Source: Flavivirga jejuensis
GTDB taxonomy: Bacteria; Bacteroidota; Bacteroidia; Flavobacteriales; Flavobacteriaceae
Length of the DNA stretch: 64,000 nt
NCBI RefSeq assembly: GCF_030540765.1
Contig: NZ_JAUOEL010000002.1
Span: 682,001-746,000 of the forward strand
Reading direction: 5' to 3'
Shown here: one piece after another, positions 57,793 to 63,763 of the stretch
Position numbering within the stretch: the first letter of the stretch is position 1
Layout: each line of letters opens with the position of its first letter
Made by a program: the position numbers and the translations under genes
Notes under the pieces: model-generated
Seen by the model: only the letters and a program-made list of their open reading frames with translations
Databases searched by the model: none
Told to the model about the DNA's origin: nothing

Positions 57793-57924
57793 TATCACAC
57801 AAAAATGTGATATTATTATTTATCACACATAAACACGATATATTCACTTATCACATTAAAGTGTGATATATTTGTTTATCACATAAAAATGCGATATATT
57901 TGTTTATCACATAAAAACGTGATA
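57793..57924 (+). promoter_or_regulatory. Phased array of five palindromic operators with embedded promoter, upstream of satD
   Basis: Five 20-bp palindromes of form TATCACA-N6-TGTGATA begin at 57793, 57821, 57849, 57877 and 57905, exactly 28 bp apart. Copies 1 and 3 are perfect; copies 4 and 5 have one arm change; copy 2 is weaker. The 8-bp linkers after copies 3 and 4 carry TATATTTG (57867-57874 and 57895-57902), matching the -7 box. The TTG of the first lies 20 nt before the second, giving a full promoter with palindrome 4 as its spacer. The array ends 1 bp before the satD ATG. Confidence 0.75.
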
Positions 57925-57925
57925 T

Positions 57926-58555
57926 ATGATACCCAAAATAATAACAAGCGTCGTAACTGGAGATATTATTAAATCCAGAACACAGGTAAATCCAGAAGTA
58001 TGGATAAAAGTACTAAAGGATGCTTTAGCTTATTTAAGTACAGATGCGTCATACTGGGAGATATACCGTGGAGACAGCTTTCAAATAGAAATTAAAGATG
58101 TTGGTTCCAGTTTTATGGCGGCACTATATATAAAGGCTTGTATAAAATCTATTCATGGTTTAGATGTTCGATTGGCTATTGGTATTGGCAATAAAACCTA
58201 TGAAGGTGAAAATGTAACAGAATCTAATGGTGAAGCCTTTGTGTTTTCTGGAGAAACACTGGAAACTTTGAAAAAAGAAAAACAGAATTTACGTATAAAA
58301 ACCAATAGTTTCAAAATAGACGAAGCACTAAACTTATATTTTAAGTTAGCCCTTATATCTATGGATAGCTGGACCGTAAATCTGGCAGAAGTTGTTAAAC
58401 TAAGTATAGAAAACCCAGATGCTTTACAAAGCGAGCTAGGTAAACTCATAGGCATAAATCAAAATGCTATAAGTACCAGACAGAAAAGAGCCCACCTAGA
58501 CGAAATTGAGGCGTTAGACCTTATGTACAGACAAAAAATAGAGACTTTAACATGA
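57926..58555 (+). CDS. satD: SatD-family regulator-like protein
   Basis: A 209-residue protein of the SatD family. The N-terminal part (about 1-115) has a nucleotide-cyclase-like fold pattern (VTGDIIKSRTQ, then YRGDSFQIEI and RLAIGIG). The C-terminal part (about 150-205) is a helix-turn-helix (ALQSELGKLIGINQNAISTRQKRA). It may bind the palindrome array just upstream and repress itself; inferred. It overlaps the DUF3307 gene by 4 bp (ATGA). Function of the family is not established. Confidence 0.85.
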   Translation: MIPKIITSVVTGDIIKSRTQVNPEVWIKVLKDALAYLSTDASYWEIYRGDSFQIEIKDVGSSFMAALYIKACIKSIHGLDVRLAIGIGNKTYEGENVTESNGEAFVFSGETLETLKKEKQNLRIKTNSFKIDEALNLYFKLALISMDSWTVNLAEVVKLSIENPDALQSELGKLIGINQNAISTRQKRAHLDEIEALDLMYRQKIETLT

Positions 58556-59253
58556 TACTACTAAAACTTTTATTAGCCCACTTAATTGGTGATTTTTTTC
58601 TGCAACCTCAAAAATGGGTTGAAGAAAAAGAAGAGAAAAAATTAAAATCACCAAAGCTGTATTTTCATATACTAATTCATGTTATTCTAACAATAATATT
58701 ACTTTGGGATATATCGTTATGGCCAATTGTACTAATTATAGGTTTTTCACATCTCATTATTGATGCTTTAAAGCTTGTCTTTCAAAAGAAAAAAACAAAA
58801 CGATTATTTTTCTTTATAGATCAGTTACTTCATATTTTAGTGATTATTGGATGTTATTTTTTCTATTTGGATACGACATTTCATCTGGAATCTTTTATTA
58901 CCGAAAACAATCTTTTATTGTTAACTTCTTTGTTGTTTTTAACAATTCCTGCCTCTATAATTATGAAAACCATTTTTTTAAAGTGGAATATTTCAGAACT
59001 TACTAAAAATAATCAATCACTTAAGGATGCTGGTAAATATATTGGTATTTTAGAACGTATTTTAGTGTTTATTTTTATAATTTCAGACCACTGGGAAGCT
59101 GTTGGTTTTTTAATTACTGCGAAGTCAGTTTTTAGATTTGGAGATTTAAAAGAGTCTAAGGACAGACAACTTACAGAATATATTTTAATAGGCACTTTAA
59201 TTAGTTTTGGAATAGCAATCATCACAGGTATTATATACACTGTGTTAATTTAA
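58552..59253 (+). CDS. DUF3307 family membrane protein
   Basis: A 233-residue protein with about six membrane helices. The N-terminus (KLLLAHLIGDFFLQPQKWV) with conserved His, Asp and Gln-Pro, and the His-rich loop FSHLIIDALKL, define DUF3307. It overlaps satD by 4 bp, an association seen in other Bacteroidota. Function unknown; the polar residues in the membrane suggest transport or catalysis. Confidence 0.85.
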   Translation: MILLKLLLAHLIGDFFLQPQKWVEEKEEKKLKSPKLYFHILIHVILTIILLWDISLWPIVLIIGFSHLIIDALKLVFQKKKTKRLFFFIDQLLHILVIIGCYFFYLDTTFHLESFITENNLLLLTSLLFLTIPASIIMKTIFLKWNISELTKNNQSLKDAGKYIGILERILVFIFIISDHWEAVGFLITAKSVFRFGDLKESKDRQLTEYILIGTLISFGIAIITGIIYTVLI

Positions 59254-59258
59254 GATAT

Positions 59259-59795
59259 ATGTTTAAAAGTACAGAAGAATCCCAAATTACCATCTCGGAA
59301 TTAATGTTACCATCACACTCAAACTTTAGTGGAAAAATTCATGGTGGTTATATTTTAAACTTAATGGATCAGATAGCATTTGCCTGTGCCTCTAAACATT
59401 CCAGAAACTATTGTGTTACCGCATCTGTAAACAAAGTAGATTTTTTAAACCCTATTGATGTTGGTGAATTGGTTACCTTAAAAGCATCGGTTAATTACAC
59501 TGGTAGAACATCTATGGTTATTGGTGTTCGTGTTGAATCGGAAAATATTCAAACAGGAAAAACAAAGCATTGTAATTCTTCTTATTTTACGATGGTAGCC
59601 AAAGATGAAAATGGAAAAAATGTACCTGTTCCTGGTATTATATTAGATTCTGAACAAAGTATTCGTCGTTTTTCAAGAAGTATTACCAGACAAGACCAAG
59701 CAAAGAAAAGATCTAATAATTTTAAAGCTTCTGAATTTAAAATGGATGACTATATAGAACTTTTAAAAGATCATAATGCGAAAGTTAAGCTTTAA
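59259..59795 (+). CDS. Acyl-CoA thioesterase, hotdog fold
   Basis: A 178-residue single-hotdog thioesterase (YciA/BACH type). The signature NFSGKIHGGYILNLMDQIAF includes the catalytic Asp, followed by VDFLNPIDVGELVTLKASVN. It hydrolyses acyl-CoA in the cytosol. It follows DUF3307 by 5 bp and is probably the last gene of the satD unit. It overlaps the end of the convergent TonB receptor gene by 4 bp. Confidence 0.92.
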   Translation: MFKSTEESQITISELMLPSHSNFSGKIHGGYILNLMDQIAFACASKHSRNYCVTASVNKVDFLNPIDVGELVTLKASVNYTGRTSMVIGVRVESENIQTGKTKHCNSSYFTMVAKDENGKNVPVPGIILDSEQSIRRFSRSITRQDQAKKRSNNFKASEFKMDDYIELLKDHNAKVKL

Positions 59796-62308
59796 AAATA
59801 AACCCTAAAAACAGCATTAGGCGTAAACCCTAAAGAATTTTGTACAGTCTCCGTAATATTTCCATCTTTTACACGATAGAAATTATTAATTTGATTTTCT
59901 TTATCCAAAATATTCCAAACTGAGATGCCTAGATTGGCTCTTGCTTTATTTGCAAGTTTAAAATTATAAGTTGCAGAAACATCCAAACGTAAATAATCAT
60001 TTAAAGTTGAAGCATTAGTCGCTTCATAATTCACTCGTTCATTAATAATTTCATTACCAAAAACGGGTTTGGTGGTAGGTTTCCCTGAATGCCAATTAAA
60101 ACCAGCAGAAACTTTTAAATTATTTAATGCATAGGTCATTCCCAAAGTAGCAGTATGTGAGATATTATAATTGCTAGGAAAATAATTCGTTTCTAAATCT
60201 TTAAACAGATAACGATTATTCATATAAGAATAACTTAACCAAGTGTTGAATCTTTCAATATGCTTTCTCAATAATACATCCACACCTTTTACATCATAAC
60301 GCCCTTGGCTCTTAACAAATTCGTATTGATTTTGAAACCCTTGACTTTGAGTGGTTATACCATCAATAATTTTATAAAAACCATCTACAGCTATTAACCA
60401 TCCATCATAACTATAGTTTAATCCCATAGAAATTTGTTTGCTTGTAATAACTGGAATGTCCTTATTATTTGATAATTGCCACCTACGTTTTTCTATTCCT
60501 AAAAAATCATTTTGAAAATTAATAACCTGAGACACATTTTGATGTTTAAACTCTCCTAATACCTCGAGTGTAAAATGTTTAAAAAAACGATGGTTAAAAC
60601 TCAACCGGGGTTCTAAAATAGATTTATTAAACTTTCCAATGTAATTATATCTAAGTCCGATATTTAAGTTTGTTTTGTTATCTAAAGTTTTATAATCAAC
60701 CTGAGAAAAAACACTATGGGTTCTTACCACTTCAGATATTAAAGACCTAAACAGTGGATTATCAACATCATCTAAATTAGTAACCTCTGTCTCCACAAAA
60801 TGATAACCGTTTAAAAGTTGTAATCTAGTATCTAAGATATAACTTACTTTTAATTTTGTACTGGTCTCTGATACTATATTTTCTTGTAAAAATCGTTGAG
60901 AATCCAGTATATTAACATTTATAGCCCTAAGCTTATAATCGGTCTCATAAATTTCAAGATCCGTACTAAACGTATCACTCCATACCCTTTTATAATGTAA
61001 AGCACCTGCAATACTATTTTGGTCCAGTCTACTATCACGAGATTCCTCTGTTTCATCTATTATAGCATTTTCGTTAAACTGAAGTTGATTATGAGCATTA
61101 ATAAAATTAACTCTCAGTTCTTCTTTATCATTAATATTATAGATCCACCTTAATGAGGTATCATAAAAATCGAAAGTTTTATTGGTATTTGTAATCGCCA
61201 TAACATTTGAAGCCACTTCTGTATTTTGTGAAATTCTGTCAAAAAAAGCAGAGTATGTTGGGGTTTCAACAAAATCGCTAATTGATTTTCTTGCTGCTAC
61301 CTGTATTGAAGATGATTCATTGATCGGAATATCTGCAAACCCATTAACATCTATTAAATTAACCCCTATAACACCTTTAAATTCGCTATTCACTTTGTGA
61401 TCTGTCTGCATGGCAATAGTTCCCGAAACACCATCGGAATAACTAACATGACTCCCATTTTTTCTTAAAGAGACTTTTTGAGTAATATGAGGGTTATACA
61501 TGGAAATCAATCCAAAAAAATGACCAGATTGGTACATTTTTATATCATCCCAGAGCATTAAATTTTGATCGTGAGTACCGCCTCTTATATTAATATTTGA
61601 AACCGTTTCATTCACACTCTGAATACCTGGAAATGCTTGAACAGACTGCAAAACATCATTATCAATTAACCCTGGTAAGATCTTTAAATTAGAAAAATCT
61701 ATCTGGAAAGAACCATTGTCTATCTTATTGATGCCACTGGTAATATAGTTTGAGATAATAACTTGAGATAATAGTTGAAGATCTGGTTGTAAATATACAT
61801 CCTCACAACCAGATCGTTTAAATTGATCATAAGACCTTGTAATAGTTCCATAACCTAAATAACGTATTGTAATTAACTGAGATACATTTTTAATTTTAAT
61901 TTGAAAAAAACCATTTTCATCACTTGTGGTAAAACGATCTGATGTTTGAACTGTTGCAGAAGCTAATGCTCTCAAATTATCTCTATCCTTAAGGTAACCG
62001 CAGAGTATAATATCTGCTCTCGGTTTAACAAGAATAAAACTATCGTTCATTAAGGCGAACGATAAACCTGTATGGTTCTCTAAATAAGCCAAAACTTCTG
62101 GAAGTGGTAATTTTTTAGCTGGTGGTTTTAAAGAAATCTCATTAATAACATCTTCTGCATAATTAAATTGAATATCATACGCCTCTTGAAGTGTTGTAAT
62201 TATTTGAGATAAAGCTCTTGAATCGCCAGTATCTTGGGCATAAATACAATTAGTAATAAAAAACAAAAGGCTAAAAAAAATAGCTGCTTTTTTAATGTTC
62301 TTTTTCAT
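59792..62308 (-). CDS. TonB-dependent receptor with STN and CarboxypepD_reg domains (FecA-like)
   Basis: An 838-residue outer-membrane receptor. The order is: signal peptide (1-24), STN signalling domain (about 40-92), CarboxypepD_reg-like domain (about 105-180), plug (about 200-310; IRGGTHDQNLMLWDDIKMYQ) and barrel (about 320-838), ending in VFRVYF. The STN domain contacts the FecR anti-sigma factor encoded 16 bp into its start region. Likely import of a siderophore, haem or glycan product; substrate unknown. Overlaps fecR by 17 bp. Confidence 0.92.
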   Translation of the reverse strand: MKKNIKKAAIFFSLLFFITNCIYAQDTGDSRALSQIITTLQEAYDIQFNYAEDVINEISLKPPAKKLPLPEVLAYLENHTGLSFALMNDSFILVKPRADIILCGYLKDRDNLRALASATVQTSDRFTTSDENGFFQIKIKNVSQLITIRYLGYGTITRSYDQFKRSGCEDVYLQPDLQLLSQVIISNYITSGINKIDNGSFQIDFSNLKILPGLIDNDVLQSVQAFPGIQSVNETVSNINIRGGTHDQNLMLWDDIKMYQSGHFFGLISMYNPHITQKVSLRKNGSHVSYSDGVSGTIAMQTDHKVNSEFKGVIGVNLIDVNGFADIPINESSSIQVAARKSISDFVETPTYSAFFDRISQNTEVASNVMAITNTNKTFDFYDTSLRWIYNINDKEELRVNFINAHNQLQFNENAIIDETEESRDSRLDQNSIAGALHYKRVWSDTFSTDLEIYETDYKLRAINVNILDSQRFLQENIVSETSTKLKVSYILDTRLQLLNGYHFVETEVTNLDDVDNPLFRSLISEVVRTHSVFSQVDYKTLDNKTNLNIGLRYNYIGKFNKSILEPRLSFNHRFFKHFTLEVLGEFKHQNVSQVINFQNDFLGIEKRRWQLSNNKDIPVITSKQISMGLNYSYDGWLIAVDGFYKIIDGITTQSQGFQNQYEFVKSQGRYDVKGVDVLLRKHIERFNTWLSYSYMNNRYLFKDLETNYFPSNYNISHTATLGMTYALNNLKVSAGFNWHSGKPTTKPVFGNEIINERVNYEATNASTLNDYLRLDVSATYNFKLANKARANLGISVWNILDKENQINNFYRVKDGNITETVQNSLGFTPNAVFRVYF

Positions 62309-63203
62309 GAAGTATCACCAAGTTTGAAGAACGCAATTCAAAAGTCATATTCATAGGTTGCGTAATAGATATTAATGCATTCTCAAGTTTATTATGTTCA
62401 AACCCTCCAGTGAATAATCGGTTAGCATCTATTCCTTTGTAGATAACTTGTATATTATATTGTCTCTCTAGTTCCATTAAAACCTCTTTAAACGGAATGG
62501 TTTCAAAGTTGCTTATATTATGAGGCCACCTTGGGGTTGAAGCCTTTGTTTTTCTTTCCGAAAATGTCCCGTTTAAAACCTGAAAAACATCTCCAGCATG
62601 CAATACTCTTACAATGGTATCTGATGTTACTTTAACAATACCTTCAAAACATTTAACTTCAAAATAATGGGCACGCTGTTTTACGTTAAATTGTGTACCA
62701 ACTACTGTTACTATACCATCATGTGTTTTAACATCGAAAACACGTCCTTTGGCAACTTTAAAAAAAGCTTCTCCTTCAAGCTTAAGTTCTCTTTTCTTAT
62801 TCCAATTCTCAGCATTAAACGTAACCCGTGTTAGGGCATTTAATTCAACCTTAGAATGGTCTGGCAACTCAATAATAGTTTTTTCACTCGCCAATGTTTC
62901 AATATGTGTAAGGGTATTGAAAAAAAATGAAAAATAGATTCCTAAACCTATTATAATAACACTTGCTATTTTTAATAAAGGAGGTAACCAATATAATTTT
63001 TTAACAAATGTTTTCTCTGAATGATAACGCTGATTGAATGTTTTAAAATCATTTACTTTAGAAAAATGAGACGCTTTAAAATGTTGCGCTGTATCAACAA
63101 TATACTGATTAAACAGGGCATCATCCAACTTACTAAATGCTTCTTTTTCAGCAACAGTCAGATCTCCTTTTAACCATGTCTCTATTAAATAATCCTTCTC
63201 CAT
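62292..63203 (-). CDS. fecR: FecR-family anti-sigma/sigma regulator
   Basis: A 303-residue single-span protein. An N-terminal cytosolic anti-sigma part (about 1-70), a membrane helix (about 77-95), a FecR domain (about 105-205, with IIELPDHSKVELNALTRVTF) and a C-terminal DUF4974 (about 235-300) are in order. It senses the receptor's STN domain and controls FecI activity. It is 35 bp downstream of fecI and overlaps the receptor gene. Confidence 0.93.
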   Translation of the reverse strand: MEKDYLIETWLKGDLTVAEKEAFSKLDDALFNQYIVDTAQHFKASHFSKVNDFKTFNQRYHSEKTFVKKLYWLPPLLKIASVIIIGLGIYFSFFFNTLTHIETLASEKTIIELPDHSKVELNALTRVTFNAENWNKKRELKLEGEAFFKVAKGRVFDVKTHDGIVTVVGTQFNVKQRAHYFEVKCFEGIVKVTSDTIVRVLHAGDVFQVLNGTFSERKTKASTPRWPHNISNFETIPFKEVLMELERQYNIQVIYKGIDANRLFTGGFEHNKLENALISITQPMNMTFELRSSNLVILHEKEH

Positions 63204-63238
63204 TAAATATATAACAACTTCACTTCTATTTCTCCTTA

Positions 63239-63763
63239 TTATTTTATTTTAAATCCTTTAAGTTCCTTTTTCAAAATATTGAAAGCACTATAAATTCTGT
63301 ATTCAACTACCTTTTGTGTTACTCCCAACATCTCTGCAATCTCACTGTGTTTCTTCCCTTCCGTCTTATTTAGTAAAAAAGCGACACGCTGTTCTTCATT
63401 TAAACTAGTTAATACTTTATTATAACGTTGCAAAAATTGTTCTTTTTCTAAAAGAAACTCTGGTGTTTCGTAAGTATGTTGCTTAGTATGTACTTGTTGG
63501 TGCCTCAAAACTACTTTTTGATGTTTAATATCATTTAACATCATATTATTAGCTACAGTATATAAAAAAGACTTGGCCTTATTTAATGATACTTTTTTGC
63601 AGTTGCTCCATAATTTCACAAAGGCATCCTGAACTTTGTCATTTGGATTAAATCGTTCTCCGTACTTATAATACAAATAACCATGTAAATCTTTAGAGTA
63701 TTTATTATAAATACGTTCAAAAACTACTTCTTTACAAATTGAATCGTTAAGGTCTTTTTTCAA
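63239..63763 (-). CDS. fecI: FecI-like ECF RNA polymerase sigma factor
   Basis: A 174-residue ECF sigma factor with region 2 (about 20-85, with KVQDAFVKLWSN and AKSFLYTVANNMMLN) and region 4 (about 115-165, LNEEQRVAFLLNKTEGKKHS). It belongs to the Bacteroidota FecI group, and together with FecR and the receptor forms a complete surface-signalling unit. It diverges from a lipoprotein gene 119 bp away. Confidence 0.93.
   Translation of the reverse strand: MKKDLNDSICKEVVFERIYNKYSKDLHGYLYYKYGERFNPNDKVQDAFVKLWSNCKKVSLNKAKSFLYTVANNMMLNDIKHQKVVLRHQQVHTKQHTYETPEFLLEKEQFLQRYNKVLTSLNEEQRVAFLLNKTEGKKHSEIAEMLGVTQKVVEYRIYSAFNILKKELKGFKIK

Follow-up and report, generated by a model that had tools for sequence, protein, structure and literature searches.

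The operators of LexA and other autoregulated repressors diverge between phyla, and recognition-sequence classes reportedly exist, following Sorokin et al., among the controller (C) proteins of restriction–modification systems. Controller proteins of the C.Csp231I type are small helix-turn-helix (HTH) regulators that act on palindromic operators placed in tandem at the promoter of their own gene (PMC3115060). The SatD family (PF16264), whose name is read as 'secretion and acid tolerance' in PMC10326533, is treated there in passages with no mention of an operator, and the SatD described here scores below the cut-off of that family. Nothing joining SatD and DUF3307 was found in the open-licence literature, nor any description of an operator array such as the one reported here; satD–DUF3307 is a two-gene module without an assigned function.

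Directly ahead of the satD-like gene in the 64,000-nucleotide stretch of Flavivirga jejuensis DNA analysed here (the window) is an array of five 20-bp palindromes (57793–57924), each of the last four beginning 28 bp after the start of the one before it (Table 1). Coordinates and arm comparison agree with the initial annotation, which had described five palindromes at exactly this spacing, copies 1 and 3 being perfect, and TAnnTTTG boxes in two linkers, placed such that the TTG of one could serve as the −33 element of the next with palindrome 4 in the spacer. The TTTG at the end of the first TATATTTG box lies 20 bp ahead of the second TATATTTG box, and copy 4 occupies that interval. The array abuts satD, as had also been noted, with one base between the end of copy 5 (57924) and the satD start (57926).

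Table 1 Features of the array and of the genes that follow it, in window coordinates
Feature	Position	Strand	Remarks
Operator copy 1	57793..57812	.	Both 7-bp arms perfect
Operator copy 2	57821..57840	.	3 mismatches to consensus
Operator copy 3	57849..57868	.	Both 7-bp arms perfect
TATATTTG, Bacteroidota −7-type box	57867..57874	+	TTTG 57871–57874 can serve as −33 element of the next box
Operator copy 4	57877..57896	.	1 mismatch to consensus; fills the 20-bp promoter spacer
TATATTTG, second −7-type box	57895..57902	+	Best candidate satD promoter, judged from consensus
Operator copy 5	57905..57924	.	1 mismatch; probably at or just past the predicted transcription start
satD-like gene, 209 aa	57926..58555	+	N-terminal nucleotidyl-cyclase/GGDEF-like palm domain, C-terminal HTH, recognition helix 179–188
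DUF3307 protein	58552..59253	+	All-helical, probably membrane; overlaps satD stop codon
4HBT thioesterase	59259..59795	+	Probably co-transcribed here; not a constant member

The loose palindrome pattern alone (up to three mismatches) is weak evidence, with 10 matches against 5.7 expected and 10 reached in 6 of 100 shuffles; the phased array of the window outscores all 100 Markov shuffles. Beyond the array, the genome has no surplus of sites, two pattern counts giving 332 against 310 and 20 against 22 in the reversed-pattern control, with the array's own sites included in each. As these counts equal the control, the notion of additional SatD sites across this genome was rejected.

Overlapping by four bases are satD and the DUF3307 gene, and the thioesterase starts five bases past the latter. 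The initial annotation had treated all three as one unit, which holds for DUF3307: among 240 distinct SatD loci, a DUF3307-like ORF lies 3′ of satD in 238, with a gap of up to 20 bp in 210, and is thus a near-constant partner (called with our own iterative profile, seeded with the gene of the window, at E up to 0.01). It does not hold for the thioesterase as a fixed member, which is found in 62 loci, downstream of satD in 31 and upstream in 31 (29 of the latter with a significant array); rmuC is upstream of satD in 70. Neighbouring genes were counted in flanks of only 1–2.5 kb, owing to which absences of the thioesterase or rmuC mean little. Because the DUF3307-like gene is near-constant and the thioesterase and rmuC are variable, we take the array to go with satD–DUF3307. 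The DUF3307 model is all-helical, a Foldseek search with it returned no known fold match (best E 1.4), and PADLOC anti-phage profiles searched against six proteins gave no match (best E 0.015). Adjoining the satD unit on the − strand (59792–63763) are sigma-factor-like, FecR-type and TonB-dependent-receptor-like genes in a row, judged from their translations.

The window protein aligns to PF16264 over nearly the full length of the profile (residues 10–189 to 4–195 of 211, E 0.0022) with 18.1 bits, below the curated cut-off of 29 bits, and 'SatD-like' is therefore its strict and safe name; we refer to it here as SatD. Of 65 relatives, 51 match the profile with E no higher than 1, the best of them at 3.3e-13, and a six-frame PF16264 search of the genome itself did not have satD among its matches. 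Among the best 80 of 584 matches, the nearest named relative by SatD sequence is from Flavivirga (86% identity). In the AlphaFold2 model (pLDDT 97.3) a palm domain is followed by a helix-turn-helix at the C terminus, the latter anticipated by the initial annotation and assigned from the model together with weak profile matches.

The nearest solved folds found by Foldseek are GTP cyclohydrolase III, GGDEF domains and class III adenylyl cyclases (top four matches with E of 6.2e-4 to 8.8e-4 and TM to target of 0.34–0.52), and the likeness of the modelled N-terminal domain to the class III cyclase/GGDEF palm is at the level of fold only. Residues D13 and D50 are invariant in alignments of 65 and 16 SatD sequences and align with the Asp of 'TDIEES' and 'QGDGF' in Ma1120 (E about 0.001), which presumably bind metal; N101 is near-invariant among the relatives. 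Owing to the cyclase/GGDEF-like fold and the invariant D13 and D50, nucleotide binding or synthesis by the N-terminal domain is plausible.

SatD is present in 68 of 120 Flavobacteriaceae genomes, in 282 of 396 in a larger sample of the family and in 90 of 296 genomes sampled phylum-wide. The 240 loci comprise 67 from the 120-genome set (68 matching genomes, one fragment, G088, left out), 83 from the phylum-wide set (seven HTH-only or partial matches and a repeat of G119 left out, and three duplicates, L075, L077 and L083, removed) and 90 from later listings, in which 109 loci were listed and 90 were new and distinct; the later set was drawn from the best 80 of 584 matches and the 30 best of the 396-genome survey. 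Arrays were scored for three palindromes in phase and for the likeness of these to one another, against Markov shuffles (100; 60 for the later set), were called significant at p up to 0.05 and were counted when the best period was 28 or 29. Scoring palindromes only is less clear than scoring palindromes and repeats together: of 67 loci, about 31 favour period 28 and about 14 period 29 by the former, against 49 and 15 by the latter.

A significant 28- or 29-bp array is present in 203 of the 240 loci: 119 of the first 150 (83 at 28 and 36 at 29 bp) and 84 of the later 90, all at 28 bp. Period 29 is found in divergent SatDs (L060–L074) and in several other lineages. Control windows 600–410 bp upstream of satD gave no significant 28/29-bp array in 237 (40 shuffles each) and 9 at other periods. 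The palindromes and 28-bp spacing that the initial annotation proposed to look for in relatives with satD are thus kept as regards the period, with 203 of 204 significant arrays at 28 or 29 bp and the remaining one at 18. They are not kept in number, which ranges from 2 to 7 copies by automatic count and is usually three or four, nor everywhere, 37 of the 240 satD loci being without a significant array. The refuting condition set by the initial annotation, absence or variation of the palindromes in close relatives with satD, is thus for the most part not borne out. A DUF3307-like gene is still 3′ of satD in 36 of these 37; thirteen (L136, L138–L148, L157) come from one bacterial family, with an upstream G+C of 0.49 versus 0.24 in array loci, and a non-significant best period of 28 or 29 is found in eight of the 37, including one from that family.

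The architecture is conserved and the operator sequence varies from lineage to lineage, with half-site types that include TATCAC, TATTCC, TATTAC, TGTTAC, TATTAG, TATAAG, TATCG, TATCTG and TATTG, the mirror image of each completing the palindrome. Agreement between copies in one genome (period-28 loci among 110) is 0.75–0.93 in the arms (positions 1–5 and 16–20), 0.38–0.58 in the linkers and, like the linkers, 0.42–0.61 in the core (positions 6–15). Conserved outer arms around a less conserved core are the pattern expected of a protein that reads half-sites. Two whole operator types are present in 8 of 193 arrays, six of which mix TATCAC and TATTCC (L012, L178, L179, L196, L203, L252); these mixed arrays look like specificity changes caught part way.

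The Bacteroidota −7 consensus is TAnnTTTG, and 125 of 193 loci have boxes of this form. The first 110 loci alone contain 84 boxes against 13.7 expected. Among 197 boxes, 111 start 8 bp to the right of a palindrome centre (period-28 arrays) and 12 start 6 bp to the right (period-29 arrays), a phase in which two letters are shared with the operator end: the TA that closes the operator helps to set the phase, and the TTTG of the box does not come from the operator. Two boxes lie exactly one period apart in 37 loci, and a TTTG lies 19–21 bp ahead of a box in 51. In L087, L092, L095, L232, L240 and similar loci (Flavobacterium where named), the core of the last operator holds TATATTTG, placing the −7 box within the palindrome and not in a linker.

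Because the operators overlap the predicted promoters in phase, autorepression is favoured, and repression by SatD of its own promoter is the most likely mode of control; as the TAnnTTTG box is absent from 68 of the 193 loci, activation or another type of promoter is possible there. Binding along one face of the DNA, as the initial annotation had it, was rejected: 28 bp is about 2.67 helical turns (28/10.5), and each dimer would therefore be rotated by about 120 degrees relative to its neighbour, away from a common face.

Co-change between protein and operator was assessed on a tree built from SatD residues 1–150 only (118 loci), with shared-branch changes counted for 190 columns and 1000 permutations. 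For operator bases 4–6 pooled, columns 181, 184, 178 and 180 rank first of 190 (z of 7.0, 5.5, 4.9 and 4.1; p = 0.001 for each, the floor of 1000 permutations), with 20, 22, 21 and 17 shared changes versus 6.6, 9.1, 9.7 and 8.5 expected. The same four columns lead for base 4 alone and base 5 alone, and column 181 is the sole one standing clear for base 6 alone. For base 2, column 179 ranks first, on only 5 changes, and Q179 is replaced by R where TAT becomes TGT (L089, L100). The first register finder set some arrays half a period off, and a bonus for a TAT start was added, which can bias bases 1–3; arrays that remain misplaced are L014 and L086, both inside the co-change test, and L185, in the held-out set.

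Residues 178–181 and 184 predict operator bases 4–5 in 80 of 83 held-out loci, compared with 58 for the N-domain neighbour, a measure of ancestry, and 61 for the rest of the C-terminal domain; where helix and ancestry disagree (n = 26), the helix is right in 24 and ancestry in 2. The held-out set leans to nearer relatives because only the best matches of the listings were used, and prediction used only rows with a consensus beginning T[AG]T, which removed 9 of the 118 loci for training and 1 of the 84 held out. With leave-one-out prediction from relatives below 50% N-domain identity only, the helix is right in 65 of 192 loci and ancestry in 24. Across the 192 loci of both sets, E or D at residue 184 goes with C at base 4 (37/38), K with TC at bases 4–5 (27/33), R with TA (28/30) and Q with TA or AA (37/40). 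The pairings of E with TATC and of Q with TATTAG each occur in two distinct kinds of recognition helix; an exception is L252, in which K184 accompanies a mostly TATCAC array. Since columns of the recognition helix and beside it co-change with the operator bases and predict them, SatD is the most likely binder, and SatD itself very probably binds the array, its putative operator. The initial annotation had left the choice between SatD and another repressor; the co-change ranks and the 80 of 83 held-out predictions point to the former.

We consider several accounts of what the array does, of which by far the most probable is that it is SatD's own operator, with SatD dimers on each palindrome exerting negative autoregulation on satD–DUF3307. 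A SatD dimer would sit on each 20-bp palindrome through recognition helix 179–188, with residues 178, 180, 181 and 184 reading bases 4–6 in either half-site and residue 179 probably contacting base 2. With such sites, in most cases three or four, spaced at 28 or 29 bp on and around the satD–DUF3307 promoter, rising SatD would shut off its own synthesis; the array may fill cooperatively, and a nucleotide bound by the N-terminal palm may tune the control. Sequence-level support for this account comes from the array, its period, its linkage to satD, the co-evolution with the recognition helix and the in-phase promoter-like boxes.

That SatD on the array switches its own promoter on, or acts as activator or repressor depending on its level, is unlikely but carries some weight, as the multi-copy operators and the 68 loci without a TAnnTTTG box would allow it and controller proteins of restriction–modification systems do both (PMC3115060). 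The operators of the window, however, extend over both the spacer and the region where transcription is predicted to start, with 111 of 197 boxes in relatives in the same phase, and a protein bound at the spacer or start usually blocks the polymerase. Binding by some other regulator, with SatD merely travelling along, would gain from the HTH assignment being drawn from a model and weak profile matches, but the co-changing SatD columns belong to the recognition helix or adjoin it and predict better than the rest of the C-terminal domain, which makes it improbable.

Still less probable is that the palindromes form a string of RNA hairpins, acting as attenuator or processing signals in a leader or in rmuC read-through RNA. 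Each palindrome could in principle fold as RNA, and copy 5 is near the predicted transcription start. Among 2499 arm pairs, however, mismatches are G–U in 113, A–C in 121 and other in 310, such that the class that keeps pairing is no commoner; the mismatch classes give no sign of hairpin selection, and the hairpins in read-through RNA suggested by the initial annotation were dropped on this count. The sequence also tracks the SatD recognition helix, and the array accompanies satD behind different upstream genes (rmuC in 70 and the thioesterase in 31 of 240). A young, functionless tandem duplication would agree with the likeness of copies within one genome, but is scarcely credible given that arms are more conserved than linkers, that control windows give no such arrays, and that period and arms are kept across genera while the operator sequence changes.

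Arrays are also found beyond Bacteroidota chromosomes. Three SatD loci on virus-collection contigs (L275–L277; 25–29% identity) have 29-bp arrays of other sequences (p 0.005 each) with DUF3307 present; no SatD was found in the phage records searched. SatD–DUF3307 pairs are carried on plasmids (L278–L286) of Gammaproteobacteria, an alphaproteobacterium and Segatella, with SatD, where annotated, given as 'hypothetical protein'. Three copies spaced at 28 bp are present in the Vibrio lentus plasmid locus (p 0.005), and in a two-copy test period 28 is best in two Pseudoalteromonas (p 0.03 and 0.01) and two Salinivibrio (p 0.005 and 0.08) plasmid loci; the repeats of these three genera again differ in sequence from the operators above. 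In the Segatella plasmid locus, 28 is tied with 32 in the two-copy test (p 0.055) and the three-copy test preferred 23 (p 0.02); in that of Enterobacter kobei, even-centred tests are non-significant (p 0.075 and 0.149), and two odd-centred palindromes, given without a p-value, lie 29 bp apart. The Pseudomonas fragi and Sphingomonas insulae loci, two of the nine on plasmids, have no array in these tests.

On the Sphingomonas insulae plasmid (L285, 1492–3357), SatD–DUF3307 is beside a gene annotated as 'Pycsar system effector family protein', in one case only; the SatD palm fold resembles the cyclase half of Pycsar-type systems. Plasmid DUF3307 proteins are longer than the 233 residues of that in the window (356 aa in L281, 2156–3226; 340 aa in L284, 2152–3174), and in these two the DUF3307 match is confined to the first ~140 residues.

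A wider reading, which we regard as doubtful, is that SatD–DUF3307 is a widespread, partly plasmid-borne nucleotide-signalling module. Its palm would make or bind the signal, nucleotide state would set the assembly of a dimer chain turning by ~120 degrees per site, DUF3307 would be the membrane effector, and redundancy of the array would permit specificity to change copy by copy, a step at which the mixed arrays hint.

Autoregulation by SatD would be the first proposed function, with a testable regulatory circuit, for a gene pair with no role assigned, the SatD half of which is in 282 of 396 sampled genomes of the family. The loci also provide 192 natural protein–operator pairs with a readable recognition code and, with the few arrays seemingly in mid-switch, make a useful system for the joint change of specificity in a repressor and its site.

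Like the controller proteins of restriction–modification systems, SatD has tandem palindromic operators at its own gene, in its case as judged from sequence. Unlike them, it has an additional N-terminal palm domain, and thus two domains against a single-domain HTH; its operators usually number three or four, at 28 or 29 bp, versus usually two; and its partner is DUF3307-like (238 of 240 loci), not a restriction enzyme. With class III adenylyl cyclases and GGDEF diguanylate cyclases it shares the predicted fold and two invariant Asp residues, and differs from them in that the domain is short and fused to an HTH. LexA-type repressors resemble SatD in targeting their own promoter and in an operator that drifts with the protein; unlike LexA, SatD has no wider target set seen in its own genome, and its sites lie in an array of strict period. 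The SatD array is thus a putative variant of autoregulated regulators with tandem operators, one that appears to be self-addressed, with letters co-evolving with SatD.
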